DNA from: Actinomycetota bacterium
Lineage (GTDB): Bacteria; Actinomycetota; Humimicrobiia; Humimicrobiales; Humimicrobiaceae
NCBI GenBank assembly: GCA_016927635.1
Contig: JAFGMJ010000100.1
Span: forward strand, 1 to 13,313
Length of the DNA: 13,313 bases
Reading direction: 5' to 3'
The notes below the pieces were generated by a model. It saw only the letters and a list, made by a program, of their open reading frames with translations. It made no database searches and was not told the DNA's origin. A program made the position numbers and the translations under genes. Below are positions 1 to 13,313 of this stretch, one piece after another. Position 1 is the stretch's first letter; each line of letters begins with the position of its first letter.

Positions 1-58
1 AATAAAAGATTTAAATTTAAACCAGATTTTAAAAATACAGGAAATTATTTTTTAAAGT

Positions 59-88
59 AAAGATAAATTTGATCTTTTATTATTTTTA
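59..88 (+). terminator. possible weak terminator of an upstream gene
   Basis: A 6-bp stem AAAGAT/ATCTTT (59-64 and 72-77) with a 7-nt loop is followed by a T-rich tail. No gene end is visible in the first 188 bases, so this would belong to a gene outside the window. The stem is short and A+T-rich, so it could be chance. Confidence 0.2.
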
Positions 89-116
89 AGAAACCGTAAG
101 TTTTCAATGTAAAAAC

Positions 117-129
117 TGCCAACTTGGCA
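117..129. promoter_or_regulatory. 13-nt palindrome TGCCAA-c-TTGGCA upstream of the redox operon
   Basis: A perfect 6-bp inverted repeat sits around a single central C, about 60 bp before the first start codon of the operon, in otherwise A/T-only sequence. A 1-nt spacer suits a dimeric protein operator better than an RNA hairpin. The regulator is unknown, and no convincing -10/-35 pair could be placed around it. Confidence 0.35.
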
Positions 130-188
130 ATATTTTTTACAGAAAGAATTTTAAATCATTTTAATTAAAGCAATATTTAAAGGCAGAT

Positions 189-1925
189 ATGAAACAAAAA
201 AAATTTAACAAAAATAAAAGCAATGCTTTAAAGATATTGATAATAGGAGGAGTTGCAGCAGGCACCTCTGCAGCAGTTAAAGCCAGGCGAAGATCTGAAA
301 AAGCTGAAATAGTGATTTATGAAAAATATAAATATATTTCATATGGAACATGCGGCCTTCCATATTTTGTTAATGGAAAAATCGATGACATAGATGACCT
401 TATAATCAATACTGTGCACCAGTTTGAAAAAAGATTCAATGTCAATGTAAAAATACTCCATGAAGTAACTGAGATAGACCCGGCAAAGAAAATCATCAAA
501 GTAAAAGATCTTAATACGGGAAGGCATTTTTTTGATAATTACGACAAGCTGATCATAACCACCGGAACTGCTCAGCTTGTAATAGATGAAAAACTTTGCA
601 ATGCAGGGAATACTTTTTCTTTAAGGACAATAGACGAAGGCCTGATGCTTAAAGACTATATAGGTTTTCTTACAGGAGGCGATAAAAAGGAACCTGAAAG
701 CGGCATTATCAGCCCCAGGCCATCAGCGGTGATTGTGGGCGGCGGTTATATAGGGCTTGAGGTCATAGATGCACTCCTTTTAAAAGGATTCCAGGTGGTA
801 GTAATTGAAAAGATGCATCATATACTGCCTGCTTTTGATTTTGAAATCATCGAATATCTTGAAAATTATCTTGCCGACAGAGGCGTAAAAATATTGAAAA
901 ACACTGAAATAAGCAGTTTTGAGCAAAAAGATAATAATTCTGTGACTTCAGTTATTACTTCAAACGGACAAAAAATTGAAAGCGACCTGGTATTTTTAGG
1001 CATGGGCGCAAGACCTGATGTAAGGCTTGCCAGGCAGTGCGGCCTCAATATAGGAAATTCAGAGGCAATATCAGTCAATGAATATATGCAGACAAGCGAT
1101 CCTGACACATATGCAGCAGGTGATTGCTGCGAATGCCGCGATTTTGTCAGCGACATAAGGCAATCTTACTATCTTGCATCTATTGCAAACATACAGGGCA
1201 GGTGTGCCGGCTATAATGCGGCAGGCGGCATGGAAAAATTTATTGACAGTATACCTACATCAATAATCAAGGTCCTTGATATCGCTGCGGCTAAAACAGG
1301 CATAAGCTTTTATATGGCAAAAAAATTAAATATCAATGCTGCAAAAATAGAACTGCATGCATTAAATCACGCAGGTTATTATCCCCAGGCTTCAATAATT
1401 CATATGCTTGCAGTTTATGATAAAGATAACGGTACAATTCTTGGATTTGAGGCAATAGGAAGGGATGGCGTGGATAAGAAGACAGATATAATGTCTGTTG
1501 TCATAAGGGCCAAAATGAAAATATGGGAACTTTTGGATTTAAACTTGTGTTATCATCCTGAATATGGCTCGGCAAAAGACCCTCTAAATATGCTCGGAAT
1601 GATAGGCCAGAATATCAAAAAAGGCGAGCACAGATTTATTGATGTGGAAGAGCTAAAAGAGATTTTGGAAAAAAAAGAACCGGTTATAATTATAGATGTC
1701 AGGAGTGAGGGGGAATTTAGCAGGGGTCATATTGAAGGCGCTATAAACATTTCCATAGATGATTTAAGGGACAATATAAAAAGCCTGGACAGAAACAGCA
1801 AAATCGTTGTTCACTGCAGGACCTCTTACAGGAGCTATCTTGCATACAGAATACTTGTAAACCAGGGTTTCAAAAATGTATGGAACTTAAACGGTTCATA
1901 TCAGAGCTGGGAAAGAAAGATTTGA
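189..1925 (+). CDS. cdr: CoA-disulfide reductase with C-terminal rhodanese domain
   Basis: FAD-dependent pyridine nucleotide-disulfide oxidoreductase of the CoADR-RHD type, which reduces CoA disulfide or CoA-persulfide with NAD(P)H; it is cytoplasmic. Seen in the 578-aa product: an FAD-binding GGVAAG motif at residues 20-25, the single redox Cys (C55) in SYGTCGLPYF, a second nucleotide-binding GGGYIG at 184-189, and a late FAD motif around YAAGDCCE. The C-terminal ~100 residues form a rhodanese domain (IIDVRSEGEFSRGHIEGAINI) with catalytic C543 in HCRTSYRS. Family knowledge: fusions of this length bind CoA-linked persulfides or handle polysulfide. The start is the first ATG, with AAAGG just upstream, and it leaves a short Lys/Asn-rich extension before the Rossmann fold. 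First gene of a five-gene + strand run. Whether CoA disulfide, persulfide or polysulfide is the true substrate cannot be told from the sequence. Confidence 0.9.
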   Translation: MKQKKFNKNKSNALKILIIGGVAAGTSAAVKARRRSEKAEIVIYEKYKYISYGTCGLPYFVNGKIDDIDDLIINTVHQFEKRFNVNVKILHEVTEIDPAKKIIKVKDLNTGRHFFDNYDKLIITTGTAQLVIDEKLCNAGNTFSLRTIDEGLMLKDYIGFLTGGDKKEPESGIISPRPSAVIVGGGYIGLEVIDALLLKGFQVVVIEKMHHILPAFDFEIIEYLENYLADRGVKILKNTEISSFEQKDNNSVTSVITSNGQKIESDLVFLGMGARPDVRLARQCGLNIGNSEAISVNEYMQTSDPDTYAAGDCCECRDFVSDIRQSYYLASIANIQGRCAGYNAAGGMEKFIDSIPTSIIKVLDIAAAKTGISFYMAKKLNINAAKIELHALNHAGYYPQASIIHMLAVYDKDNGTILGFEAIGRDGVDKKTDIMSVVIRAKMKIWELLDLNLCYHPEYGSAKDPLNMLGMIGQNIKKGEHRFIDVEELKEILEKKEPVIIIDVRSEGEFSRGHIEGAINISIDDLRDNIKSLDRNSKIVVHCRTSYRSYLAYRILVNQGFKNVWNLNGSYQSWERKI

Positions 1926-2539
1926 TTAATGTATTGCGAGCCTATTTTAATTCCGGCGGTAATGAAAGGTTTGTTTTGGAAAAGATAAAAGATTTACAAA
2001 ATATGAAAGTAAAATTTATAACATGTGACGTAATACTGGATGAGGTAAAAGACAGGCTGCCTGATAACTGGGACACTGTAAAATTTGAAAAATTTATAGT
2101 TATTCCCAAATGTGACGACTGCATATCACTGCTTCTGGGTTCATCCCAGGAATATAAAAAGCAGATTTTAAAGGCTCCCGGCACCTATTACCTCACAAGG
2201 GATTATATAGGCGAGAGCGAAAACCCGATGCTTAGCAATTATGGGGAAATGCTTGAAAAATACGGGGAAAAGACATTGAAATGGATTTTAGACAAGATGC
2301 TGAAAAACTATACCCGTCTTGTCTATATAAACACCGGCAATTATGAGTCCGATGAGTGGAGAAAGGTCGCCTGCAGCCAGGCAGAAAAACTCGGCCTTGA
2401 TTTTGAAGAGGTTGAAGGAACGGACCAGTATTTCAGCAAACTAATAAGCGGCCAATGGGATGACCAGTTCCTGACAGTAGAGCCGGGACAAAAGATAAGC
2501 TTTGAAATGTTTTTAACGGATAATATAAAAAATAATTAG
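1880..2539 (+). CDS. DUF1638 family protein
   Basis: The C-terminal two thirds match my knowledge of DUF1638: KCDDCISLLLGS, then APGTYYLTRDYI, then KYGE and a YTRLVYINTG strand. Biochemical function is unknown; relatives often sit beside corrinoid or methyltransferase genes in anaerobes. The start is uncertain. ATG 1880 overlaps the previous gene by 46 bp. TTG 1922 overlaps its stop as TTGA and has GGGAAAG six bases upstream. ATG 2003 begins MKVKFITCDV, which looks like the usual family N-terminus but has no clear ribosome site. From M42 the protein goes straight from the first strand to KFIVIPKCDDC. It therefore appears to lack the central segment (about 45 residues, with a Gly/Cys loop) that I recall in family members. 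No transmembrane segment is seen. Likely co-transcribed with its neighbours. Confidence 0.7.
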   Translation: MELKRFISELGKKDLINVLRAYFNSGGNERFVLEKIKDLQNMKVKFITCDVILDEVKDRLPDNWDTVKFEKFIVIPKCDDCISLLLGSSQEYKKQILKAPGTYYLTRDYIGESENPMLSNYGEMLEKYGEKTLKWILDKMLKNYTRLVYINTGNYESDEWRKVACSQAEKLGLDFEEVEGTDQYFSKLISGQWDDQFLTVEPGQKISFEMFLTDNIKNN

Positions 2540-2551
2540 ATTATCATAATC

Positions 2552-3196
2552 ATGGCAGAAGTTATTAAAAATAAAAAACAATATAAAGTTGCAGCAGTTT
2601 ACGGCAGCCCCAGGCGTGGTGGCAATACTGATGTGCTTTTAAATAAGTTTTTGCAGGGCCTTTCTGAATGTGACTGTTTTAAAGAATCTGCAGATGAGCC
2701 GCTGGAGTTAAATATAGACAAAATCCATGTTTCAGAGCTTGCAATATCTTCATGCAGGGAATGCAGAAGCTGTTCCAAAAACGGCCTGTGTGTTGTAAAT
2801 GATGATATGCAAAAGGTTTACCCCTATGTTGAAGAATGCGATTTGCTAATAATTGCAAGTCCGGTTTTTTTTACCACAGTATCAGGCCATCTTAAGGCTT
2901 TTATAGACAGGTTCCAGAGATTCTGGGCTCTTAAGTATGAGATAGGAAGAAGAACTATAACAAAAGAAAATAAAAAAGGGATACTGCTCTCGTGCGCAGG
3001 CTCAAAACCTGAAAATATATTTGACTGCACAAAGAAGGTAATCAGGGCTCTTTTCGATGTGCTTTATATAAAATATTATGCTGATTTTTGCTATAACAAT
3101 ATAGATTTTATGGGCGATATTTTAAAAGAAAAGGAAATTATAGACGCAATATATGAATTTGGGAAAAAAGGTGAATTTATTAAGGAAGGCATATAA
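2552..3196 (+). CDS. iron-sulfur flavoprotein (Isf-like, NADPH-dependent FMN reductase fold)
   Basis: Flavodoxin-like FMN protein of 214 aa. The phosphate-binding loop is VYGSPRRGGNTDVLL (residues 16-30). A compact cysteine motif C68-x2-C71-x2-C74-x5-C80 has the spacing known to hold the [4Fe-4S] cluster in methanogen Isf. It is followed by the flavodoxin strand LLIIASPVFFTTVSGHLKAFIDRF, a typical FMN-side loop. Family members are cytoplasmic dimers passing electrons between ferredoxin-type donors and FMN; in anaerobes some help remove O2 or peroxide. The start lies 12 bp after the previous stop with no strong ribosome site, suggesting translational coupling. The electron donor and acceptor are not deducible; the adjacent CcdA/TlpA pair makes a redox-supply role possible but unproven. 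Confidence 0.8.
   Translation: MAEVIKNKKQYKVAAVYGSPRRGGNTDVLLNKFLQGLSECDCFKESADEPLELNIDKIHVSELAISSCRECRSCSKNGLCVVNDDMQKVYPYVEECDLLIIASPVFFTTVSGHLKAFIDRFQRFWALKYEIGRRTITKENKKGILLSCAGSKPENIFDCTKKVIRALFDVLYIKYYADFCYNNIDFMGDILKEKEIIDAIYEFGKKGEFIKEGI
3182..3189 (+). promoter_or_regulatory. ribosome binding site that fixes the TlpA start
   Basis: AAGGAAGG lies 8 nt before ATG 3198, inside the last codons of the preceding gene. It favours this start over the in-frame ATG at 3153, which would add 15 charged residues ahead of the signal peptide and overlap the upstream gene by 44 bp. Confidence 0.75.
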
Positions 3197-3197
3197 A

Positions 3198-3728
3198 ATG
3201 GAAAAAAATAAAAAATGGCTTTTATTTATTTTTACAGTTTCAGTTATAGCTGTTGCTGTTATATTTTTGTCTGCAGGTTGTACAGGTAACGGTGCTGATT
3301 CCGGAAATGCAACTGCAGGCAGTTCAAGCGCTATAGATTTTACTCTTCCTGATCTTGAAGGCGATGAAATAACTCTCAGCAGCCTTAAAGGAAGTATAGT
3401 CGTTGTGAATTTCTGGGCAACCTGGTGCCCGCCATGCAAAGCAGAGATACCTGATTTTATTGAAGTCAATTCTGAGTATATGGAGAAGAATGTAAAGTTT
3501 CTGGGTATCAGCTCAGAGGATGAGGACCTGCTTTTAAGCTTTGCAGGGATTTTTGGTATAAATTATCCTGTACTTATTGACAGCACAGGCGCTGTTTTTA
3601 ATGCGTACCAAGTTGAGGCGATACCGCAGACATTTATTATAGACACAGATGGGAATATAGCATTCGAGCAGGTAGGAATGATGTCAAAAAGCCAGCTTAA
3701 AGCAGCGCTTGATGATTTGCTTGGCTAG
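3198..3728 (+). CDS. TlpA/ResA-like thioredoxin-fold lipoprotein
   Basis: Surface-anchored thiol-disulfide oxidoreductase of 176 aa. Charged N-terminus (MEKNKK), hydrophobic segment at residues 7-26, then a lipobox ending in C28 (LSAGC), so Lgt (encoded later in this window) would lipidate it. A Ser/Gly/Ala-rich linker leads to an AhpC/TSA-TlpA domain starting at IDFTLPDLEG. The redox motif is W-C77-P-P-C80 in NFWATWCPPCKAEIPDF, and the cis-Pro loop is AIPQTFIID. The WCPPC dipeptide is typical of TlpA/ResA/CcmG-type reductants rather than DsbA-type oxidants. Only 1 bp separates it from the gene before and 24 bp from ccdA after it. Inferred role: receives electrons from CcdA and reduces extracytoplasmic disulfides, possibly on apocytochromes, although no cytochrome gene is in view. 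Confidence 0.9.
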   Translation: MEKNKKWLLFIFTVSVIAVAVIFLSAGCTGNGADSGNATAGSSSAIDFTLPDLEGDEITLSSLKGSIVVVNFWATWCPPCKAEIPDFIEVNSEYMEKNVKFLGISSEDEDLLLSFAGIFGINYPVLIDSTGAVFNAYQVEAIPQTFIIDTDGNIAFEQVGMMSKSQLKAALDDLLG

Positions 3729-3752
3729 ATTTATTTAAGGAGAAAATAAGAA

Positions 3753-4490
3753 ATGTTAGAAGTGGGAATACTTTCAGCTTTTATTGCAGGTATACTATCC
3801 TTTATATCACCATGCGTTCTTCCGCTGGTCCCTGTTTATCTGGGTATAATGTCCAGGAATGCCATATATAAAAATGAAAAAATAAAGCTTTCAGACAGGC
3901 TTTATACATTTATAAACAGTCTTCTTTTTGTTGCAGGTTTTTCAATCATATTTATCATTCTCGGTTCCACTGCGACATTTCTGGGACAGCTTCTGAAAAA
4001 TTATTTGAGCATAATCGGTAGAGTAGGGGGCGCAATACTGATAATTTTCGGCTTGCATTATGTAGGGCTTTTTAAAATACCTTTTCTTAATATGGAAAAA
4101 AGATTAAAAATGCCTGAAAAGCTTAAAACGGGCTATCTCTGGAGCTTTTTGTTCGGTGTTATTTTTTCATTTGGGTGGGTGCCATGCGTGGGAATGATAC
4201 TTTCTGCAATTTTGCTTCTTGCAAGCAATATGGATACCTTTCTGCAGGGAATTTCACTTCTGCTGGTATTTTCAGCAGGACTTGGCCTGCCTTTTATAAT
4301 GGGGAGCCTTTTTATCGGCTTTTCATCCAGGCTGCTTAAGAAAATAAACAGGCATTTAAATATAATATCAATAGTTTCAGGTATTTTCCTGATTATACTT
4401 GGCATTATTTTTGTAACCGATTCAATGATGAAAATAATGAATTTTTTGCTTGCAAGAATACCTTTTCTATCAAAAATAAGCCTTTACTGA
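3753..4490 (+). CDS. ccdA: CcdA/DsbD-type transmembrane thiol electron carrier
   Basis: Integral membrane protein of 245 aa, the usual CcdA length, with about six hydrophobic helices. The two conserved redox cysteines are both in Pro-Cys contexts: C21 in SFISPCVLPLVP (first helix) and C145 in FSFGWVPCVG (fourth helix). It moves reducing equivalents from cytoplasmic thioredoxin across the membrane to partners such as TlpA/ResA. Ribosome site AAGGAG (3737-3742) lies 10 nt before the ATG. It sits 24 bp after its probable partner, the thioredoxin lipoprotein. It ends the operon: no clear hairpin terminator follows, but a new promoter begins at the next base after the stop codon. Confidence 0.93.
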   Translation: MLEVGILSAFIAGILSFISPCVLPLVPVYLGIMSRNAIYKNEKIKLSDRLYTFINSLLFVAGFSIIFIILGSTATFLGQLLKNYLSIIGRVGGAILIIFGLHYVGLFKIPFLNMEKRLKMPEKLKTGYLWSFLFGVIFSFGWVPCVGMILSAILLLASNMDTFLQGISLLLVFSAGLGLPFIMGSLFIGFSSRLLKKINRHLNIISIVSGIFLIILGIIFVTDSMMKIMNFLLARIPFLSKISLY

Positions 4491-4518
4491 TTGAAAATAA
4501 GCTGTAAATATATATAAT
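4491..4518 (+). promoter_or_regulatory. sigma-70-type promoter for the signalling cluster
   Basis: TTGAAA (4491-4496) and a perfect TATAAT (4513-4518) are separated by 16 nt, starting directly after the ccdA stop codon. Transcription would begin near 4525, leaving a leader of about 180 nt before the ATG at 4707. This is the best -35/-10 pair I found in the window, though such matches are easier to get in AT-rich DNA. Confidence 0.55.
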
Positions 4519-4594
4519 CTAATATAGTCGCTTTTAATGGCTTTAAAGGTAAGCGTGTTTGTTTTATGGCATAAAAAATCATAATAAAACTTTT

Positions 4595-4665
4595 AATTAC
4601 ATAATTACTATTAATAAGTAATGTAATTATAATTATAATACAAGATTATGATATAATTATAATTA
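4595..4665 (+). repeat. two overlapping inverted repeats in the leader of the cobalamin-binding protein gene
   Basis: Repeat A: AATTACAT (4595-4602) and TACT (4606-4609) pair with AGTA (4617-4620) and ATGTAATT (4621-4628), with a 3-nt bulge and a 7-nt loop. Repeat B: a perfect 14-bp A/T-only inverted repeat, 4624-4637 with 4652-4665, around a 14-nt loop. The arms share 4624-4628, so in RNA the two stems would exclude each other. They could instead be operator sites. Base composition makes long A/T palindromes more likely by chance, so function is inference. The whole stretch 4491-4706 has no ORF worth calling and no cobalamin-riboswitch box that I can see. Confidence 0.45.
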
Positions 4666-4706
4666 AATTTACTATATCTAGCTTTTATTTATAGAGATTT
4701 AATTAT

Positions 4707-5762
4707 ATGAAGGATTTAAATGCTATTGCGGGTTCTTTCCTGAAAAATAATCATGATGAACTTGCAGAAAAAATATTTGAATTCTATATTAAAGAGAAGT
4801 TAAAGCCACAAACTTCTATAAATCCACATGAAAAGCTTATGATTAGAACCGGTGTAAGCTCAAATCTTTGCGCCCTTGCAGACGGGTTGTATTATTCTGA
4901 GCAAAATATATACGAGAATGAACTGGAATGGGCCAGAAGATACCTTTCCAGGATAAAGATACCGGTAGAAAATATTACTTTACTGCTTGAAGCTTCAAGG
5001 GATATTTTTGAAAAAAGGCTGCCTCAAAAAATAATTTTTAATGTCTTAAATTATGTTGATTATGGAATCACTGTGCTTAAAAGGACTTTAAATGAAGAGC
5101 CAAGCTATTTAAAAGAGGGAAATCAATTATATAATGAAAGCGTAAAATATCTGGAATATATTTTAAAAAAGAAAAAAAATTCAGCAATAGATATGATATT
5201 TAAACTTGTCAATAATCGCCAAAATACTATAAAAGATATTTATACGCATATATTCCAGCCCTTACATAGAGAGCTGGGAAGGATGTGGCAGAATGGACAA
5301 ATAACGACTTTTCATGAACAGTATGCAATCGCCGTAACCCAGCTTGCCATGTCCCAGCTTTATGATTATATTTTCAAGAAAGAAAAGAGCGGTAAATCTT
5401 TTTTAGCTGCTTGTGTTTCAGGTGAGCTTCACGAGATTGGGCTAAGAATGATATCTGATTTGCTTGCTCTTGAAGGCTGGACCACCTTTTATCTTGGGTC
5501 AGATACCAGCATTAAAACTATTATCGACACACTTGAAAATAACACAGTCAGCATAATCGGGTTATCTGTAACTGTTTCAAAAAACCTGGATGAGAGCAAA
5601 AAAGTAATTGAGTATATAAGGAAAGTATATGATTATGAGGATCTGAAGATAATTGTAGGCGGTTTTGTTTTTAACAATTCCGAAGATTTATGGAGCAGGG
5701 TAGGGGCGGACAGTTATGCAAATAATGCCTGTGAAGCAATCGATATAATTACTGGATTTTAA
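4707..5762 (+). CDS. cobalamin-binding sensor-like protein (helical cap plus B12-binding domain)
   Basis: 351-aa soluble protein. Residues 1-130 are an all-helical N-terminal region I cannot assign (possibly sensory). Residues ~140-225 look like the four-helix B12 cap, and ~232-350 the Rossmann B12-binding domain. Lower-ligand motif E240-L-H242-E-I-G245 is the E-variant of DxHxxG, and H242 should bind cobalt. The domain continues with LLALEGW, FYLGSD, IIGLSVTV and IIVGGFVF strands, as in MtbC1/CarH-like proteins. The cap has W194-x9-E204-Q205, resembling the photoreceptor motif Wx9EH but with Gln for His. There is no methyltransferase domain and no MerR DNA-binding domain, so a sensory role is likelier than catalysis. 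It is followed after 46 bp by a histidine kinase and its regulator. Ribosome site is weak (AGAGA, 4693-4697). Confidence 0.85.
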   Translation: MKDLNAIAGSFLKNNHDELAEKIFEFYIKEKLKPQTSINPHEKLMIRTGVSSNLCALADGLYYSEQNIYENELEWARRYLSRIKIPVENITLLLEASRDIFEKRLPQKIIFNVLNYVDYGITVLKRTLNEEPSYLKEGNQLYNESVKYLEYILKKKKNSAIDMIFKLVNNRQNTIKDIYTHIFQPLHRELGRMWQNGQITTFHEQYAIAVTQLAMSQLYDYIFKKEKSGKSFLAACVSGELHEIGLRMISDLLALEGWTTFYLGSDTSIKTIIDTLENNTVSIIGLSVTVSKNLDESKKVIEYIRKVYDYEDLKIIVGGFVFNNSEDLWSRVGADSYANNACEAIDIITGF

Positions 5763-5808
5763 AAATAAATTGAGCTTATAATTTCCGTAAAAATTATTCC
5801 GGGAGCTG

Positions 5809-6810
5809 ATGTGCGTAATGGAGGATTTATCTAAAGTAAAAAATCTTGTTATTACCTGTGATAAAAATGGTAAAATACTTGGTATCATAAATGAAGGCAC
5901 AAAGCTAAAAGAAAGCAGCTATATTGGTAAGGACTTTCCCAGTATTCTGAGTAAGGATAGCTTCGGTAAATCTATTAATTTCATCAAAAAAATAATTAAA
6001 AATAAAAGTGCCTTTAACTGTGAAATGCTTTTAAACACCAATGAAGGGAACAGTCTTTTTGATTTTTCGGGAATTAGTTTTAACACGAACCTGCTTATAA
6101 TTGCAACAAATGTTCATTATGAGATGAAAGATTTTTTAGGAGGAATGGGTGAAATAATAAATGAGCAGACAAATATCATAAGAACCTGTAATGCAGAAAA
6201 AGCCCAGATATCAAAAATTGAAAGGGAAAGGATAGCAAAGGAACTACATGATACAGTTAGCCAGACAATATTTTCCACAAGGGTAATAGCTGAAATATTG
6301 CCCGATATATGGGAAAAAAACAGACATGAAGCAGTGAAACAGCTTGAAAAACTTAAAGTCCTGACTGCGGAATCACTTTTTGAAATGAGAAGGGTGCTTC
6401 TGGAATTGAGGCCTGATGCTTTTTCAGATGAAGACATCAACGAGCTTCTCAGGCAACTTGTAAACTCGGCAAAACTGCGTTCAGGAATTAATGTAGGCTT
6501 AAAAATAAAGGGCAATGGCGTACCAGGAAAAGAAATCAAGGAAACGGTTTACAGGATAACGCAGGAGTCGCTTAATAATGCAATAAAACATTCGGGTGCA
6601 AAATCTGTAAGTGTTGTCCTTGAGTACTCTAAAAATAAATTAAATCTTAAAATTTCAGACGACGGCAAAGGTTTTGATTTAAATGAAGTTGCAAAAAATA
6701 AATACGGCATATATATTATGAATGAGCGGGCAAACTCTATGAATGCAAAACTTAAAATCACCAGTCTTATTGGTCATGGAACAGAGGTTTTTTTGTCCTG
6801 TAACTTATAA
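5809..6810 (+). CDS. soluble PAS-domain sensor histidine kinase (HisKA_3/NarL-partner class)
   Basis: 333-aa kinase without any membrane segment, so it senses a cytoplasmic signal. Residues ~10-105 read as a PAS-like domain (ITCDKNGKILGI at the start, FSGISFNTNLLIIAT at the end) with Cys at 17 and 71. A helical linker follows, then a HisKA_3 dimerisation helix with phospho-acceptor H147 in RERIAKELHDTVSQ. The ATPase domain has its N-box in QESLNNAIKH (N256/N257), G1 box DDGKGF (284-289) and a late G-x-G around SLIGHGTEVFLS. HisKA_3 kinases phosphorylate LuxR-type regulators, and one lies 19 bp downstream. Start is ambiguous: ATG 5809 is only 3 nt from GGGAG (5801-5805), whereas ATG 5818 is 12 nt away and removes three residues. 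The neighbouring cobalamin protein is the obvious candidate input partner (inference). Confidence 0.88.
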   Translation: MCVMEDLSKVKNLVITCDKNGKILGIINEGTKLKESSYIGKDFPSILSKDSFGKSINFIKKIIKNKSAFNCEMLLNTNEGNSLFDFSGISFNTNLLIIATNVHYEMKDFLGGMGEIINEQTNIIRTCNAEKAQISKIERERIAKELHDTVSQTIFSTRVIAEILPDIWEKNRHEAVKQLEKLKVLTAESLFEMRRVLLELRPDAFSDEDINELLRQLVNSAKLRSGINVGLKIKGNGVPGKEIKETVYRITQESLNNAIKHSGAKSVSVVLEYSKNKLNLKISDDGKGFDLNEVAKNKYGIYIMNERANSMNAKLKITSLIGHGTEVFLSCNL

Positions 6811-6829
6811 AAAATATTATTGAATAGTT

Positions 6830-7468
6830 ATGAATTCCGAAAGAACTATAAGTGTATTTATAGCTGATGACCATGCCGTTACAAGAGATGGCATCAAAAC
6901 AATGCTTTCCGTAAACAATGATTTTGTTTTTGCCGGGGAAGCTGCCAACGGAAGAGATGCTGTAGATCTTTGCAGTAAGATAAAACCTGATGTTATACTT
7001 ATGGATCTTGATATGCCTGTAATGGATGGGGTTTCTGCAATTAAAATCTTAAATGCCGAAAATCCTGATATTAAAATAATGGCGCTGACCAGTTTCCCTG
7101 ACAAAAAAATGGTAAGGGAGGCTTTCAAGGCTGGAGCCTCAGGCTATATGCTGAAAAATGCATCACCCCAGGAGATTGCTTCAGCAATAAGGGAAGCCTT
7201 TTCAGGCAGGGTGAGCATGTCCAGGGAAATAGCCGATGCCCTTTTTGAAGAAATAAAAAAACCTGCCCAAAATTATAATCTGGGTGAGCAGGAGTTAAAA
7301 ATACTTAACCTGCTTGCAAAAGGATATTCAAATAAAAAAATCTCAGAGATCCTATATATTAGCCAGCACACTGTTAAATTCCACATAAGCAATATACTTT
7401 CTAAAATGGGCGCTGCAACAAGAGCAGAAGCCGCTTCAATAGCAATAAAAAATAATATTATAAGCTGA
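6830..7468 (+). CDS. NarL/FixJ-family response regulator (receiver plus LuxR-type HTH)
   Basis: 212-aa DNA-binding regulator. Receiver domain residues ~7-125: acidic pair D13-D14, phospho-acceptor D59 in VILMDLDMPVMDG, switch T86/S87 in MALTSF, and conserved K109 in GYMLKNASP. All key phosphorylation residues are intact. C-terminal LuxR HTH residues ~148-208: LGEQELKILNLLAKGYSNKKISEIL, then recognition helix SQHTVKFHISNILSKMG. Its cognate kinase is almost certainly the HisKA_3 protein 19 bp upstream. No strong ribosome site precedes the ATG, consistent with coupling to the kinase. Likely targets are nearby promoters; palindromes at 4595-4665 and 7554-7569 are candidates only. No terminator is evident after the stop. 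Confidence 0.92.
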   Translation: MNSERTISVFIADDHAVTRDGIKTMLSVNNDFVFAGEAANGRDAVDLCSKIKPDVILMDLDMPVMDGVSAIKILNAENPDIKIMALTSFPDKKMVREAFKAGASGYMLKNASPQEIASAIREAFSGRVSMSREIADALFEEIKKPAQNYNLGEQELKILNLLAKGYSNKKISEILYISQHTVKFHISNILSKMGAATRAEAASIAIKNNIIS

Positions 7469-7553
7469 TCTTTTATCCGTCAAACTGCCCGATTGTCCAG
7501 TTAAAAACTAGCCTATTTATTAGCCATATGCGTATATGCAATAAAATAAGCCA

Positions 7554-7569
7554 AAGTATAATTATACTT
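7554..7569. promoter_or_regulatory. 16-bp perfect palindrome AAGTATAATTATACTT
   Basis: AAGTATAA is followed directly by its reverse complement TTATACTT. The palindrome centre is 33 bp before the TTG start of the pseudo-receiver gene. It contains TATAAT at 7557-7562, and another TATAAT follows at 7571-7576. It therefore overlaps or abuts a likely -10 region and could be an operator for a dimeric regulator such as the LuxR-type protein just upstream. No clear -35 was found. Confidence 0.45.
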
Positions 7570-7583
7570 ATATAATAATAATT

Positions 7584-7588
7584 AAGGA
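7584..7588 (+). promoter_or_regulatory. ribosome binding site for a TTG start
   Basis: AAGGA lies 6 nt before TTG 7595. There is no in-frame ATG near the start of the receiver-like fold, so this site supports TTG as the initiation codon of the small pseudo-receiver. Confidence 0.6.
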
Positions 7589-7594
7589 TTGTAA

Positions 7595-7972
7595 TTGAAA
7601 ATATTGTTGGCAATAAAAGACAGGCTGGTAAGATCGGCTCTTAAATCTTTAATAAGGTTTAACTGCACTGATGATATTGCCATGGATGCGGCAGATCATT
7701 TAAATTTCCTTGAACAATTGAGGAATAATAAAAACGACCTGGTAATACTTGAGAGGGAGTTTTTTTTCGATGATAATCCGGAGATGATTATACTTTTAAA
7801 AAAAGCTTACCCGGAAATTAACTTTATTGTTACCGGCATAAACAGGGAAAGCCAGAGAGAAGCCATAGATGCAAAGATGGATGCATTTTATATGCAAAGC
7901 GATTCTCCTGAAAGGCTTGTTGAATTAATAAACGGGTTTCGCCGGGGTAAAAAGAGTGTTTCTGATAATTAA
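7595..7972 (+). CDS. stand-alone pseudo-receiver domain protein
   Basis: 125-aa protein with the receiver-domain pattern: first strand KILLAIKD, helix LVRSALKSLI, strand DLVILE, strand INFIVTGIN with T80, strand AFYMQSDSP, last helix ERLVELINGF. Compared with active receivers it is degenerate. Only one of the two N-terminal acidic residues remains (D9). The phospho-acceptor Asp is replaced by Glu (E53 in LVILERE). The conserved Lys after the fifth strand is Gln (Q101). It has no output domain. Glu can mimic phospho-Asp, so it may be a constitutive partner or decoy for the kinase or regulator upstream (inference). TTG start, 126 bp after the response regulator gene, with its own palindrome and possible promoter. 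An alternative view is a decayed receiver, but the reading frame is clean. Confidence 0.75.
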   Translation: MKILLAIKDRLVRSALKSLIRFNCTDDIAMDAADHLNFLEQLRNNKNDLVILEREFFFDDNPEMIILLKKAYPEINFIVTGINRESQREAIDAKMDAFYMQSDSPERLVELINGFRRGKKSVSDN

Positions 7973-7995
7973 GGAAATATTATTTTTTAAAATTC

Positions 7996-8016
7996 AACCC
8001 TGTAAACGGGGTTTTT
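7996..8016 (+). terminator. Rho-independent terminator after the signalling cluster
   Basis: Stem AACCCTG (7996-8002) pairs with CGGGGTT (8007-8013), including one T-G wobble, around a TAAA tetraloop, followed by a short T run. It lies 23 bp after the pseudo-receiver stop and only 50 bp before the next start codon. Confidence 0.7.
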
Positions 8017-8065
8017 CATATATTTTTTAGATGTTTATTAAAAAACACATTGAAAGGAAAAAACA

Positions 8066-9355
8066 ATGAAAAAAACTATAAAAATAATGATGGTTGCTAT
8101 TACTGTTATGGCAATCGCATCCGTATTTTTAGTTCCATCAGTTATTGCAGCTGATACACCAAAGACAATAGTTGAAACCGCTGTTGGTGCTGGAAGCTTC
8201 AATACTTTAGTTGCCGCAGTAACTGCTGCCGGACTGGTGGACACTTTATCAGGACCAGGGCCATTTACAGTATTTGCCCCAACAGATGAAGCTTTTGAAA
8301 AACTTCCTGACGGCACAATTGATGCGCTCCTGGCTGATCCTTCAGGACAGCTTACAGACATTCTTCTTTTCCATGTTGTCTCAGGAAAAGTAATGGCAGC
8401 TGACGTTGTTAATCTTAAAAGCGCAACTAGCGTTAGCGGAAGGATACTTCCTATCGATACGACAGACGGCGTTAAAGTAGCAGGCGCAAAAGTTGTAGTT
8501 ACAGACATTGAATGCTCAAATGGTGTCATACATGTAATAGATACAGTAATGATACCTCCGGCTGCAAAATATTCTGTAAGCGATACAGGAGTAGCAGGTT
8601 TTGTGACCTATCTTTATAATAATCTTCTTGGAAGAAATCCTGATGTAGACGGACTCAATACCTGGGCAGGATGGCTCGAGAGTGGAGCAATGGCTGCAGA
8701 CACTACAGTATCAGGCATTCTTGCAAGCAGTGAGGCACAGGCAATGATATCGGGTTATTCAGACGATATGTTTGTAAAATATCTTTACATGGGTCTTTTT
8801 GGCAGAAATCCTTCATCTGATGAAGTATCTTCATGGACAAATATTCTTGCTTCAGGTGTTTCCAGGATGGATGCTGTAAAGCATTTTACAAGGTCCACAG
8901 AATTCATACTTCTCTGCTCAAAATATGGTGTTAAGCCATTTACAACTGACCTTGGGACAATACCTGAAACAGCAGTAAAGGCTGGTACATTCAGCACGCT
9001 GGTTGCTGCAGTAACCGCTGCAGGCCTTGCTGAGACACTGTCAGGACCGGGTCCATTTACAGTATTTGCGCCTACAGATGCAGCATTTGCAAAACTTCCT
9101 GCAGGTACAGTTGAGGCTCTTCTTGCAGACCCCACAGGGCAGCTGAAAAATATACTTCTTTTCCATGTCGTTTCAGGAAAAGTCATGGCTGCTGATGTTG
9201 TAAATCTTACAAGTGCGCCCACAGTGCTTGGCCAGGATGCTTCAATAGAGATTAAGGACGGCAAAGTATATGTTGATGGAGCACAGGTAATTGTAACAGA
9301 CATAATGTGTTCAAATGGAGTAATCCATGTAATCGACACAGTTATGCTTCCTTAG
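8066..9355 (+). CDS. secreted FAS1-DUF4214-FAS1 (fasciclin) protein
   Basis: 429-aa exported protein. Signal peptide: KK-rich start, hydrophobic stretch to residue ~25, probable cleavage after VIA or VIAA (28-29). First fasciclin (FAS1) domain ~34-163, DUF4214 region ~176-287 with two related halves ([19 protein letters not shown] and [19 protein letters not shown]), second FAS1 ~298-429. Both FAS1 copies keep [26 protein letters not shown] and [13 protein letters not shown] and are very similar, pointing to an intragenic duplication. FAS1 domains mediate adhesion or matrix binding; DUF4214 is common in surface and S-layer-type proteins. Its function is unproven, and adhesion or envelope structure is the best inference. 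AAAGGA (8053-8058) lies 7 nt before the ATG. No wall-anchor motif or transmembrane segment is seen at the C-terminus. It is a single-gene unit between two terminators. Confidence 0.9.
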
Positions 9356-9360
9356 TTTTT

Positions 9361-9411
9361 ATATTGCTGATTTGCAGCATGCAATATATTCAAAACAGGG
9401 TTTAGACCCTG
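9361..9411 (+). other. two small hairpins after the fasciclin gene
   Basis: ATATTGC (9361-9367) pairs with GCAATAT (9381-9387), and CAGGGT (9396-9401) pairs with ACCCTG (9406-9411) around TTAG. Neither is followed by a T run. With the strong terminator just downstream they make three consecutive hairpins in the 3' region, possibly protecting mRNA ends (inference). Confidence 0.4.
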
Positions 9412-9415
9412 GTAC

Positions 9416-9458
9416 AAAATATAAAGGGACCTTAATAAATAAGGTCCCTTTATATTTT
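9416..9458. terminator. strong bidirectional terminator
   Basis: A perfect 18-bp stem (9416-9433 with 9441-9458, core AAAGGGACCTT/AAGGTCCCTTT) surrounds a 7-nt loop AATAAAT. The A-tract on one side and T-tract on the other allow termination on both strands. It lies between the convergent fasciclin gene (+) and nitroreductase gene (-). Confidence 0.9.
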
Positions 9459-9473
9459 AATGGTTCTTTTAAT

Positions 9474-10226
9474 TTACTCGGCATATCCCACAGGTATCAC
9501 ATAAAGTGGCGTGTGCGCATCAGTTAAGCCTATTATCTCTATTACCATTTCATCTCTGAAGGCTCCTATTGGAACTGCCCCCAGATGCAGTGATGTCACT
9601 TCAAGAAGTATATTCTGGCACACATGGCCTGCCTCCATATTGGCATACCTTATTGCCCGGCTGCCATATTTTTTTTCAGTTCTTCCGTATTCAGCAATGA
9701 TGACTATATTTAATGGCGCTTCTTTTACAGGTTCCTGCAAAAGGCATGCTTCATATAGCTTGAGCCTCTTATCTTTATCGCTTACCTTATGCAGTTTGTG
9801 GCCCTGGGGGATATATTTATATATGCCGTCACTTTTAAATATATAAACATCTATAGGGTAAAGCGCCCCTGCAGAAGGCGCCGTACGGTAGCCCGTATCA
9901 TTTTTGGTTATGCCCTGTGCGGCCCATAAAATCATTGATATTTTTTCCATGTCTATTTTTCGGCCGGTAAAATCTCTGATCGATCTCCTGGACATAAGCG
10001 CTTCATCAAGAGGATAATGATTATCGGTTGATATTTCCGGAAGATCTATGATTTCAGCAGTATTATTTTGGCTTTCTAATCGGTTTATTGCAGTATTTGA
10101 TTTTTCCTGAGTCGTTATGCTATTGTTAACCTGGCATGAAACATTAAATGATGCAGAAATAGTAAAAAAAAGAATTGCTATAGCAGTTAAATACTTGAAT
10201 AAGATGTTAATTTTCTTACTTTTCAT
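9474..10226 (-). CDS. SagB-type nitroreductase with an export signal
   Basis: 250-aa FMN-dependent oxidoreductase of the SagB/ThcOx branch of nitroreductases. Domain from ~residue 65: SRRSIRDFTGRKI (FMN phosphate contacts), APSAGALYPIDVYIF (the branch's typical motif), and a second FMN region EAGHVCQNILLEVTSLHLGAVPIGAFRDE. Upstream are a Lys-rich start, a hydrophobic segment at residues ~8-27 and a Cys at 31 (FNVSC, only a partial lipobox), then an Asn/Thr/Ser-rich linker, so it looks exported or membrane-tethered. In peptide-toxin clusters SagB oxidises azolines, but no cyclodehydratase or precursor peptide is here, so the substrate is unknown. It is a single gene on the minus strand, converging with the fasciclin gene across a shared terminator and divergent from the DUF454 gene. 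The start codon has only a weak ribosome site. Confidence 0.85.
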   Translation of the reverse strand: MKSKKINILFKYLTAIAILFFTISASFNVSCQVNNSITTQEKSNTAINRLESQNNTAEIIDLPEISTDNHYPLDEALMSRRSIRDFTGRKIDMEKISMILWAAQGITKNDTGYRTAPSAGALYPIDVYIFKSDGIYKYIPQGHKLHKVSDKDKRLKLYEACLLQEPVKEAPLNIVIIAEYGRTEKKYGSRAIRYANMEAGHVCQNILLEVTSLHLGAVPIGAFRDEMVIEIIGLTDAHTPLYVIPVGYAE

Positions 10227-10299
10227 TTTATCAAATTATATTTTGCTTATTCAATATTACAGTAACAACTTTAAAGCTATTAGTAAAATTTAATTTTTT

Positions 10300-10314
10300 G
10301 TATGCCGGCAATAC
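10300..10314. promoter_or_regulatory. near-palindrome in a divergent intergenic region
   Basis: GTAT-GCCGGC-A-ATAC is an inverted repeat except for one extra A, a GC-rich core in A/T-rich DNA. It lies between the divergent nitroreductase (-) and DUF454 (+) genes, 26 bp before the latter's ATG. Possible operator; no other evidence. Confidence 0.25.
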
Positions 10315-10339
10315 TTTTTAATAATTAATTAATATTAAA

Positions 10340-10750
10340 ATGGACGTTAAAAAAAGTAAAAAAAATAGTTTCCTGAAAAAACCTGTGAGAGTATTGCTGA
10401 TATCAACAGGCACATTATGCATAGGAGTGGGCATAGCAGGGATTTTCATCCCGGTGCTCCCCACGACTCCTTTCATACTGCTTGCAGCAGCGCTTTATGC
10501 AAAAAGTTCCAGGAAATTTTACTCCTGGCTTGTAAACAACAGGGTTTTCGGTTCATATATTAGAAGTTATAGGGAAAAGCGTGGAGTTCCGCTTAAAATC
10601 AAAGTTTATGCGCTGTCTGTTTTGTGGCTGACAATAGGTCTTTCAATATATTTTGGCACCCAAATAATCTGGCTGAGATTACTTCTTGTAGCAGTGGCAG
10701 CAGGTGTTAGTGTGCATATACTGAAACTGAAAACCATAAAAAATACCTGA
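10340..10750 (+). CDS. DUF454 (YbaN-like) inner-membrane protein
   Basis: 136-aa membrane protein. A basic N-terminus is followed by a first helix containing the family's hallmark IFIPVLPTTPFILLAAALYAKSS (residues ~36-58). A soluble stretch, FYSWLVNNRVFGSYIRSYREKRGVPLKIK, matches the conserved DUF454 middle. Two more hydrophobic helices follow near the C-terminus (ALSVLWLTIGLSIYF and LLLVAVAAGVSVHIL). Length is normal for the family. Function is not established. It appears monocistronic: divergent from the nitroreductase gene and 262 bp before lgt. The ATG has no strong ribosome site. Confidence 0.9.
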   Translation: MDVKKSKKNSFLKKPVRVLLISTGTLCIGVGIAGIFIPVLPTTPFILLAAALYAKSSRKFYSWLVNNRVFGSYIRSYREKRGVPLKIKVYALSVLWLTIGLSIYFGTQIIWLRLLLVAVAAGVSVHILKLKTIKNT

Positions 10751-11000
10751 ACTCAGTCTTTTCCCCAGCGAGTAAAATACTGTCAGGTTTTATGCTTCAC
10801 TATCCTCCTGGCAGAAAAACCATGCCCGCTTAGCCTTCAAACAGTTTTTTCCAATACCTTTTATGGCAAATTATTTTTTGTCAAAAATTTTTAGATGCTA
10901 ACAACATTATTAAGAAATATAAGTTTTTTTTAAAATATGTTATTATTTCAAATTATTCCAGGATATTTTTAAGACGTCTTATTTATAAAAACTATTAACA
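10751..11000. other. intergenic region before lgt
   Basis: No convincing coding potential. An 8-bp stem CTGTCAGG (10780-10787) pairs with CCTGGCAG (10807-10814) with one wobble and a 19-nt loop; it has no T tail, so it is not a standard terminator. A perfect 12-bp palindrome TAAGACGTCTTA lies at 10970-10981, 32 bp before the lgt start, and may overlap its promoter. The rest is A/T-rich without a recognised RNA family. Confidence 0.35.
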
Positions 11001-11005
11001 GGGGG
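11000..11005 (+). promoter_or_regulatory. ribosome binding site for the lgt TTG start
   Basis: AGGGGG lies 7 nt before TTG 11013. It supports TTG as the start, giving the normal short Lgt N-terminus (MSAVNPIAFSFG) before the first helix. Confidence 0.65.
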
Positions 11006-11012
11006 AAATTAA

Positions 11013-11837
11013 TTGTCAGCAGTAAATCCGATTGCTTTCAGTTTTGGAAGATTTGAAATAAGGTGGTATGGAATACTTATAGCACTGGCTCTTCTCATTG
11101 GAATAGCTGTTTCATATTTCATTGCAAAATATAGGGGTGAAAAACCCGAGGAAGTCGTCAATTTTGCGCCCTTTGCAGTCATATTTGGGGTGCTTGGTGC
11201 CAGGCTTCTGCATGTCATTGTCAACTGGTCATATTACAGCCAAAATCTCTCTTATATATTTGCTTTCAGGAGAGGCGGCCTTGCAATACAGGGCGTTATG
11301 CTTGGCGGCGTGCTTGCTCTGCTGGTGTTCTGCAAAATACGTAAACTTGATTTCTGGCTCTGGGCAGACATCATTTCTCCCGCTCTTATTCTTGGGCAGG
11401 CAATAGGAAGATGGGGAAATTACTTTAACCAGGAAGCTTTTGGCATGCCAACAAGCCTGCCATGGGGAATATTTATAGAAGCTCCATACAGGCCCGCAAT
11501 ATATTCCAATTCAGAATATTTTCATCCCACATTTTTCTATGAGTTTCTGGCAAATATGATTCTTTTCGGGCTGCTGCTTTTAATTCACAGGCTTTATAAA
11601 AGAAGGCCGGACAGGTTTCCCTATGGCCTGATTTTTGCAACATATTTGGGCGTTTATGCTGTCTACAGGTCCATAATAGAATATTACAGGGTGGACAGCA
11701 GCGAATTCCTTGGCATAAAAGTCGTATATATACTTGATGCAATTGCAATAATAGTCGCACTTATAATAATTAATTACCTTGTCAAGAAATTCAGGATTAA
11801 AAAAATGCAGAAGGAGATGGAGGATTCTGAAGAGTAG
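11013..11837 (+). CDS. lgt: prolipoprotein diacylglyceryl transferase
   Basis: Membrane enzyme that transfers diacylglycerol from phosphatidylglycerol to the lipobox Cys of prolipoproteins; likely clients here include the TlpA-like lipoprotein at 3198. The 274-aa product has about seven hydrophobic helices and the family hallmarks: R17-W-Y-G near the N-terminus, GARLLHVI (62-69), RGGLAIQGVMLGG (87-99), the Lgt signature GRWGNYFNQEAFG (132-144, with R133 equivalent to the essential E. coli R143), HPTFFYE (171-177) and YRSIIEYYR (218-226) containing the second essential-Arg region. Q93 sits where E. coli has H103; other lineages vary here, so activity is still expected. TTG start. It ends 5 bp before the convergent queH, with no room for a dedicated terminator. 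Confidence 0.95.
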   Translation: MSAVNPIAFSFGRFEIRWYGILIALALLIGIAVSYFIAKYRGEKPEEVVNFAPFAVIFGVLGARLLHVIVNWSYYSQNLSYIFAFRRGGLAIQGVMLGGVLALLVFCKIRKLDFWLWADIISPALILGQAIGRWGNYFNQEAFGMPTSLPWGIFIEAPYRPAIYSNSEYFHPTFFYEFLANMILFGLLLLIHRLYKRRPDRFPYGLIFATYLGVYAVYRSIIEYYRVDSSEFLGIKVVYILDAIAIIVALIIINYLVKKFRIKKMQKEMEDSEE

Positions 11838-11842
11838 GCAGG

Positions 11843-12403
11843 CTAGGATTTTTTCATGGAATAAACGCATCCGCAGTATTTTTGCCTGTATACATTGAAC
11901 TGTGAGGCCATGTACATGGTTTTTTTAAATCCGTCTTTCTTTTTGAAATTTGAAAAATAATAACTGATGCCGGTATCTGAAGAGATTTCTTCTGCAACCT
12001 TGTTTATTACATCTGCGTTTTTATGCGGGCTCACAGAGAGCGTGGTAGCAAAAATATCAAAATTGCACTTTTTTGCAAGAACTGCAGTTCTTTTAAGCCT
12101 TTTGTAAAAACACAAGCTGCATCTCTTGCCTCCCTCAGGCTCACCTGTATAAATGTCTGTGTACTCAAACCAGCGTCTGCAGTCGTAAGGACCGGCATGC
12201 ATTTTAATTCCAAGATTTTGGCATACTCTTTTTACATCGGCCAGCCTTTTATCATACTCGTCAAAGGGGTGGATATTGGGATTGTAAAAATAAACCGTAA
12301 TATCAAAGCTGTCTTTTAAAAGCTGGTAAGGGTGCATAAGGCAGTTTGCGCAGCATGCATGCAAAAGCATTTTTTGTTTTATATGTGTTTTTTTTACATG
12401 CAT
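11843..12403 (-). CDS. queH: epoxyqueuosine reductase QueH (DUF208)
   Basis: Reduces epoxyqueuosine to queuosine at tRNA position 34, the non-B12 alternative to QueG; cytoplasmic. The 186-aa product shows the QueH layout: CC-x2-C (C17, C18, C21 in LLHACCANC), HPFDEYDKRL, the EGGKRCSLCFYKRL motif with a CxxC pair, ATTLSVSPHKN, a FKKKDGFK motif and the C-terminal YCGC. These cysteines bind a [4Fe-4S] cluster plus a second metal in characterised QueH. Length is typical. It converges on lgt (5-bp gap) and is divergent from hisD. No other queuosine gene is in the window, so it may rely on salvage or on genes elsewhere. The first ATG (12403) has a weak ribosome site. Confidence 0.95.
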   Translation of the reverse strand: MHVKKTHIKQKMLLHACCANCLMHPYQLLKDSFDITVYFYNPNIHPFDEYDKRLADVKRVCQNLGIKMHAGPYDCRRWFEYTDIYTGEPEGGKRCSLCFYKRLKRTAVLAKKCNFDIFATTLSVSPHKNADVINKVAEEISSDTGISYYFSNFKKKDGFKKTMYMASQFNVYRQKYCGCVYSMKKS

Positions 12404-12429
12404 TTTATTCTTGTATTTATCAATGTTTT

Positions 12430-12457
12430 TTAATATATTACATGAATGTGTTTACAA
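12430..12457 (-). promoter_or_regulatory. candidate queH promoter
   Basis: On the minus strand TTGTAA (12457-12452) and TATTAA (12435-12430) are 16 nt apart and would start transcription about 20 bases before the queH ATG. The match to sigma-70 consensus is partial, and A/T-rich composition lowers its weight. Confidence 0.35.
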
Positions 12458-12475
12458 AGAAAATAATTGCACGCT

Positions 12476-13313
12476 ATGCCATATGATTTTTTAAAAATTC
12501 AAAAAATTTCAGGGATTTTTGAAATAGAAGATTTTTTAAACAGGAGAACCCGGATAAACAGCGAAGTACTTGAATCTGTTTCAAAAATAATTGATGATAT
12601 AAGGGTTTCAGGCCAGGAGGCGCTGTTTAAATACTGCAGCAAATATGACGGAATAAATGCGACTTGTGTTGATGATATAAAAGTGGCTTTATCTGAGATT
12701 GAAAAAGCTAAAAAAAATATACCTGGTAGATATCCTGAACTTGCCCGCGCCATAGAGGTTGCACTTACAAACCTTCAGCATTACCACAATGTCCAGCTTG
12801 AAAAAGAGCCGAAATCATGGAATATAGAACCCGGAAGAGGTAAAAAGCTTGGCCAGTTATTGATGCCCCTTGAGAGAGTGGGCTTGTATATTCCGGGAGG
12901 CAGGTTTTTATACCCTTCCTCCATACTTATGGCAGCAGTTCCTGCAAGGGCGGCCGGCGTAAAGGAAATTGCGGTATGTTCGCCCCCAGGCGCCAGCGGA
13001 AAAATAGACAGCCTTCTTCTTTATATATTTGCCATTCTTGGGATAGATGAAGTTTACAGTGTGGGAGGTGCCCAGGCTGTTGCCTTATTTGCATACGGCA
13101 CTGAAAATATAAAAAAAGTTGATAAGATTGCAGGGCCGGGTAACATCTATGTAACGGCTGCTAAAAAAATAGTTTATGGTGATGTGGGCATAGACAGCCT
13201 TGCAGGACCGAGCGAGGTCCTTATAATTGCAGACAGCGCTGCAAAGCCGGCATTTATTGCGGCCGACCTTCTTTCCCAGTCTGAGCATGACCCGGACTCA
13301 TCCAGCATACTGC
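12476..13313 (+). CDS. hisD: histidinol dehydrogenase, 3' end beyond window (partial)
   Basis: Catalyses the last two steps of histidine synthesis: L-histidinol to L-histidine with 2 NAD+, Zn-dependent, cytoplasmic. From ATG 12476 an open frame (MPYDFLKIQKISG...) runs to the window end, giving 279 complete codons of the usual ~430. Recognised motifs: VSGQEALFKYCSKYDG near residues 42-57, the family block RVGLYIPGG with YPSSILMAAVPARAAGV, EVYSVGGAQAVALFAYGT, the signature AGPGNIYVTAAKK, the DSLAGPSEVLIIAD strand and the Zn-site LLSQSEHDPDSS, with Q268 and H271 matching known Zn ligands. The truncation is only the window edge. It is divergent from queH (72 bp apart). No T-box or attenuator fits in that gap. 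The ribosome site is poor; the only earlier nearby in-frame ATG (12446) runs into a stop, so 12476 is the likely start. Confidence 0.95.
   Translation, partial: MPYDFLKIQKISGIFEIEDFLNRRTRINSEVLESVSKIIDDIRVSGQEALFKYCSKYDGINATCVDDIKVALSEIEKAKKNIPGRYPELARAIEVALTNLQHYHNVQLEKEPKSWNIEPGRGKKLGQLLMPLERVGLYIPGGRFLYPSSILMAAVPARAAGVKEIAVCSPPGASGKIDSLLLYIFAILGIDEVYSVGGAQAVALFAYGTENIKKVDKIAGPGNIYVTAAKKIVYGDVGIDSLAGPSEVLIIADSAAKPAFIAADLLSQSEHDPDSSSIL

Follow-up and report, generated by a model that had tools for sequence, protein, structure and literature searches.

Is the cobalamin-binding (B12) protein encoded beside a two-component system in an Actinomycetota contig the signal-input subunit of that system, and which signal would it read? 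The DNA analysed, hereafter the window, is a 13,313-nucleotide stretch from an Actinomycetota bacterium of the Humimicrobiaceae (GenBank assembly GCA_016927635.1, contig JAFGMJ010000100.1, positions 1 to 13,313, forward strand). An earlier note, made from the sequence alone, had described four same-strand genes there, for a B12 protein, a soluble kinase, a LuxR-type regulator and a pseudo-receiver, and the window's open reading frame (ORF) calls confirmed all four on the plus strand (4707-5762, 5809-6810, 6830-7468 and 7595-7972). The first two products probably work together as one sensor, and we consider it likely that the B12 protein is a freestanding globin-B12 (photocobilin-like) sensor and governs, in trans, the soluble kinase encoded next to it via a dedicated adaptor.

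Gene 1 (4707-5762, +) encodes a photocobilin-like protein of 351 amino acids, assigned from Pfam, family alignment, an AlphaFold2 (AF2) model and fold matches. Pfam domains were B12-binding_2 (residues 148-218) and B12-binding (residues 232-345), and the Pfam scan contained no methyltransferase or DNA-binding domain, in agreement with the earlier note, which had overlooked the N-terminal globin. Residues 1 to about 127 form a phycobilin-type globin domain by profile alignment, AF2 model and fold matches (photoglobin-type domain, residues 1-128, 4707-5090, +), joined to a B12-binding half composed of a helical bundle and a Rossmann domain (residues 138-351, 5118-5759, +); this is the photoglobin-B12 (photocobilin) architecture. 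The AF2 model had a predicted local distance difference test score (pLDDT) of 93. Its best fold matches were photocobilins, as obtained from Foldseek matches re-ranked by VIA-align, whose lists only re-rank Foldseek's own matches, so that absence from them carries no meaning. A protein search returned a 49%-identical relative.

The photocobilins SasPcob and AbDPcob share with the window protein the B12 helical bundle, Rossmann and globin domains, the GxxW and ExH motifs and E204, whereas its globin is N-terminal, unlike theirs (the paper itself groups members by domain order), and it has EQ for EH, Gly for the bilin Asp and GxxxS for GxxxP (PMC10979010). The photoglobin-B12 family has the same domain architecture as the window protein. 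CxQD, the motif reported for photoglobins (PMC10151467), is absent from the window protein. CarH and LitR share the B12-binding domain fold and the conserved Trp, Glu and His ligand, but CarH is a repressor with a DNA-binding domain, which the window protein lacks (PMC11796333, PMC10442372). The earlier note drew its contrast with CarH and passed over the closer kin, the photoglobin-B12 proteins (photocobilins). A CarH/LitR-like identity of gene 1 was rejected (no MerR DNA-binding domain in Pfam; 40.5 bits against a cut-off of 400).

It is also very improbable that gene 1 encodes an MtbC/MtgC-type methyl-carrying corrinoid protein lying by chance beside a two-component system. NCBIfam MtbC/MtgC models do match, and relatives appear in some sources under the name 'methanogenic corrinoid protein MtbC1', but all these matches are far under the curated cut-offs (65.1 bits against 350), the protein has an N-terminal globin, and photocobilins are its best fold matches. 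In addition, no methyltransferase occurred among the 14 contig proteins scanned, and the signalling partner is conserved across phyla.

That partner is encoded by gene 2 (5809-6810, +), a soluble HisKA_3 histidine kinase of 333 amino acids (330 if translation starts at the ATG at 5818) with HisKA_3 and HATPase_c domains in Pfam. Its best 19-residue hydropathy value was 1.07, compared with 2.87 for the neighboring CcdA-like protein, and no membrane-like segment was detected in any of the four proteins using 19-residue windows. The PAS fold ascribed to this kinase in the earlier note was missed by Pfam and is supported by the AF2 model and PAS structure matches (residues 11-102, 5839-6114, +; also recognized by profile). 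It is followed by a conserved helix with an INEQTNxxR motif (6124-6201, +; AF2 model and conservation). PAS domain and helix together constitute the proposed photocobilin-partner adaptor, defined as a PAS fold plus an NNEQxNxLR helix encoded immediately 3′ of a globin-B12 gene, an arrangement present in the window. Within the adaptor, conservation is highest in the helix, averaging 2.91 bits compared with 1.84 in the PAS core. Against profiles built without the window sequence, the window adaptor scored 85.7 bits and the window kinase 95.7 bits (64-row N-terminal-domain profile). When five such N-terminal domains from downstream partners of related B12 genes (see below) were scanned alone, Pfam returned a single hit, at E 0.023 and from an unrelated family. 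All 18 closest kinases of the protein search (P0124-P0141) carry the adaptor. When the window kinase was searched against 61 genomes, only its own match at E≤1e-20 took in the N-terminal domain among the matches listed, while the others started at residue 110 or later.

Schneider et al. in 2022 reportedly found photoglobin-B12 proteins associated with signal-transduction domains in fusions and gene neighborhoods. Genome contigs were scanned for relatives of the B12 protein, yielding 492 stretches, of which the best 80 were taken as loci; by record title, these span Chloroflexi, Acidobacteriota, Bacteroidota, Bacillota, Cloacimonadota, Gemmatimonadota, Verrucomicrobiota, Lokiarchaeota and others. 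A same-strand ORF came next downstream in 75 of the 80. Among these 75 downstream proteins and the window kinase, 63 contained HATPase_c, 55 HisKA, 3 HisKA_3 and 7 GGDEF, and an N-terminal adaptor-type domain was common to most of the 75. In a profile search of all 3846 locus ORFs, the next gene downstream carried the adaptor (E<1e-5) in 69 of 80 loci, or 71 of 80 when L050 and L053 are included, in which the adaptor begins ≤10 bases from the end of the B12 gene and the ORF start was mispredicted. Most locus sequences had trained the profile; the independent tests are the window kinase, the held-out rows (19 of 19 recovered) and whole-genome searches. In three Adhaeribacter loci (L047, L061 and L081) the downstream partner is only 164-173 amino acids long, consisting of adaptor and helix without an output domain, which would suit a free-standing connector. 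The pair was also found in L018 and L074, records titled Lokiarchaeota, and may thus cross the bacteria-archaea divide.

Specificity was assessed using adaptor profile A4 (38 rows) and B12-protein profile A1 on 230 Mb of sequence, which comprised 50 genomes out of the 80 hosts. The adaptor was detected at E≤0.001 in 40 of the 50 genomes, with 41 matches in total, and 40 of these lay ≤500 bases directly downstream of a same-strand B12-protein match. Of the 41 matches, 28 are A4 rows and thus adjacent by construction; among the 13 outside the A4 rows, 12 were adjacent to a B12 gene. The sole exception, genome G207, has an adaptor joined to GGDEF and also an unpaired B12 protein; the unpaired photocobilin-like gene (L153:2134-3144) and the adaptor-GGDEF gene (L154:2907-3986) are on different contigs, and their products may be partners at a distance. 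Within 296 genomes of the window's phylum, the adaptor occurred in two, the window genome (itself an A4 row) and G270, where a contig starts inside a photocobilin-like gene, of which the final 39 codons are present, and the adaptor gene comes next. In the sampled genomes, then, a single adaptor lay apart from such B12 genes, and the B12 proteins were often without an adaptor. Chance adjacency of the B12 and kinase genes was rejected on the locus and whole-genome counts. The proposal in the earlier note that the separate B12 protein is a signal-input subunit is, at the level of sequence, well supported by the conserved adjacency and the dedicated adaptor domain.

In the mechanism we propose, a change of cofactor state in the B12 protein, either loss of the adenosyl group by light or a change in corrinoid presence or redox state, would alter its docking on the kinase adaptor, in which the PAS domain is followed by an NNEQ-type helix running into the phosphorylation domain. 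Docking would set kinase activity, and with it phosphorylation of the NarL-type regulator and a change in transcription. The fold match to AppA/AerR-type proteins was distant in sequence (16% identity), and AppA and AerR are not known to carry a globin domain. AppA/PpsR and AerR/CrtJ are alike in that a B12-type domain acts in trans on a PAS-domain protein with a conserved helix after the PAS domain, and differ in that their output is DNA binding rather than a kinase (PMC9144470). HbpS-SenS-SenR likewise combines a two-component kinase with an accessory modulator that binds tetrapyrroles (heme, aquo-cobalamin), but HbpS is a secreted, GAF-like protein, SenS is embedded in the membrane, and the sensor fold is unlike that of the window system (PMC4991794). 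For standalone photocobilins, function is described by the authors as 'less clear', and an isolated photocobilin exerted light control of a separate protein in vitro, a diguanylate cyclase; the main text of that paper contains no word starting 'kinase' (PMC10979010). No photocobilin-kinase pair or adaptor was found in the openly licensed literature, as far as it was available, and absence from print is not claimed. The conserved partner supplies standalone photocobilins with a candidate direct effector and a candidate docking region, and the question therefore becomes one for a binding and autophosphorylation assay. If the proposal is correct, a two-protein B12-based input is added to two-component signaling, and optogenetics gains a ready-made input module.

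Whether light is the input in the window was addressed by comparing its residues with those of 114 relatives, of which the protein search supplied 33, genome loci 80 and a family genome 1. W194, E204 and H242 are kept and are each invariant in 114/114 relatives, and the E/DxH cobalt-ligand motif is present (GELHEIG, H242). Position 205 is Gln (His in 114/114 relatives), position 268 is Ser (Pro in 111/114) and position 49 is Gly (Asp in 104/114). The W-x10-EH and GxxxP motifs of light-responsive cobalamin domains are therefore absent, with His replaced by Gln and Pro by Ser. By profile alignment Gly49 corresponds to SasPcob Asp270, and the 26-residue Asp-Trp spacing of the family equals that of G49 and W75. 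In SasPcob, Asp270 contacts the bilin (biliverdin) and lies 26 residues from Trp296 (PMC10979010). The window columns corresponding to CxQD, the bilin motif given for photoglobins (PMC10151467), read IRTG. The closest relative, P0002, keeps EH and has Gly at both 49 and 268. These losses, together with the longest root-to-tip path in the tree (see below), argue against bilin use and against assumed light sensing in the window copy, and light as its input, which the earlier note had entertained, is not borne out by the signature residues; adenosylcobalamin photochemistry still appears compatible with those retained.

It is accordingly quite possible, though less than evenly so, that the wiring is as proposed and the signal is not light but the supply of adenosylcobalamin or the state of the corrinoid (its redox state or its upper ligand), in a host that makes no use of light. 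Beyond the substitutions at 49, 205 and 268, heme oxygenase (PF01126) was absent from the window genome and from 46 of 51 others searched, a test that sees PF01126 only, so that other heme-degrading enzymes may escape it, and the window genome is 77% complete. Several hosts of relatives (Caloramator, Halanaerobium, Syntrophaceae) are anaerobes. The window genome has five further B12-binding-domain matches outside gene 1 and a partial CobA/CobO-type adenosyltransferase, but a PduO-type adenosyltransferase (PF01923) was not found in this 77% complete assembly. Retention of W194, E204 and the cobalt ligand His242 also counts on the side of light, as does AbPcob, which has His in place of the bilin Asp and is still light-responsive (PMC10979010). 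PF01126 was present in 5 of 52 genomes and missing from 47, although the bilin Asp is retained in 104 of the 114 B12 proteins, and heme oxygenase was the minus-strand upstream neighbor in 4 of the 31 loci with such a neighbor (L033, L038 (G220:C3, G224:C46) and two more); its link to photocobilin-like genes is weak overall. We tentatively put forward, as a rather doubtful extension, that standalone photocobilins use a dedicated, exchangeable PAS-plus-helix adaptor unknown to Pfam, attached to two kinase classes or diguanylate cyclases in many phyla and in Lokiarchaeota, and that in the window lineage this two-protein light switch became a corrinoid sensor that does without bilin, and perhaps without light, and acts on a NarL regulator. 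The window copy is in any case a natural variant without key light residues, useful for asking which residues distinguish a light sensor from a corrinoid sensor.

Several observations weigh against control of the kinase by the B12 protein. Nine of the 80 loci have no clear adaptor directly downstream: at L023 the contig breaks off; the L045 protein is a fusion that carries just the helix; in L051, L070, L075 and L079 the downstream gene shows no more than a weak helix match; at L060 a weak helix match falls in the gene immediately before the B12 gene; and L028 and L036 have no adaptor match. A1 matches (E≤1e-30) occurred in 14 of the 296 phylum genomes, compared with 2 having the adaptor, and several of the 14 cover the B12 half only. 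Loci were picked by likeness to the window B12 protein, and all 50 genomes hold one; the P0124-P0141 kinases, whose contigs and B12 neighbors lie outside the data, do not enter the pairing evidence; and adjacency and co-inheritance are not binding. The window protein also has the longest root-to-tip path of 115 in a midpoint-rooted tree and lacks residues kept by nearly all relatives, and as judged from its sequence it may have lost cofactor or light function. That it is a degenerate homologue without cofactor sensing, serving only as a kinase scaffold or heading to loss, is nevertheless unlikely. Such decay would fit the branch length, the lost signature residues, the pseudo-receiver in the same putative operon and the absence of the block from G001, a genome of the same genus, but the ORF is full-length and intact, the AF2 model has a pLDDT of 93, the cobalt ligand and GxxW are kept, and the 49%-identical relative exists.

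Control of the kinase by the B12 protein being the favored reading, the output would pass through gene 3 (6830-7468, +), a complete NarL/LuxR-type regulator with receiver and GerE domains in Pfam, as earlier described; next to the HisKA_3 and HATPase_c kinase it makes up a NarL-type two-component system. Of the 75 loci that have a second gene, 54 had a third ORF to test, and in 5 the contig ended first; this third ORF contained a receiver domain of any type, hybrid kinases counted, in 24 of 54 relative loci (25 of 55 including the window). GerE was not among the 25 commonest third-gene families in the tested relative loci, and a NarL-type third gene is therefore not general. Gene 4 (7595-7972, +; 125 amino acids, TTG start) gave a weak receiver match (E 0.008, under the Pfam cut-off); placed by eye on the usual receiver motifs, it has Glu as the phospho-acceptor residue and Gln where Lys is normal, consistent with the degenerate receiver first proposed. 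A search of 5.8 billion proteins returned one homologue (57%), in which the phospho-acceptor position is still Asp. Conserved adjacency, expected of all four genes, was thus obtained for genes 1 and 2 and does not extend to the others, and the interpretation in the earlier note is, as a whole, partly supported.

The block is missing from G001 (92% complete), where genes for an oxidoreductase, FMN reductase, thioredoxin-like, CcdA-like, SagB-like, LGT and QueH proteins follow in that order. The G001 gap between the CcdA-like and SagB-like genes is ~120 bases; in its place the window has the B12 protein, kinase, regulator, pseudo-receiver and a protein with two fasciclin domains and DUF4214 (8066-9355, +; Pfam). 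Part of the G001 intergenic stretch gave a weak local alignment at window 4520-4560. The block was more likely gained by the window's lineage than lost, because the B12 protein was otherwise seen in the family only as a fusion in G021 and a contig-end piece in G026. Being part of the block, the fasciclin-DUF4214 protein shared its gain or loss; it is possibly co-gained, and a candidate target of the regulator or cargo. Contig misbinning is unlikely, as the LGT protein of the contig is 89% identical to that of a same-genus genome with shared flanking order.

A promoter-like site (TTGAAA-16-TATAAT, 4491-4518, +) lies directly 3′ of the ccdA-like gene. This site, the fresh promoter of the earlier note, matches 11 of 12 consensus bases and was the best of 29 in the region, but it is a consensus match alone in a noisy scan (29 sites, compared with 18.3 ± 4.0 in shuffles). 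At the end of the putative operon, a terminator-like hairpin (7996-8013, +) was likewise a consensus match alone, from a scan that found 3 hairpins in the region compared with 2.4 in shuffles. Searches of the window for tRNAs and Rfam families gave no match. A SagB-type nitroreductase domain protein adjoins the block (9474-10226, −). The DUF1638 gene (1880-2539) and the DUF454 gene (10340-10750) of the window have no match in the syntenic stretch of G001, and in G021 a DUF454 gene (L120:4978-5355) is located two genes upstream of the B12-GGDEF fusion.

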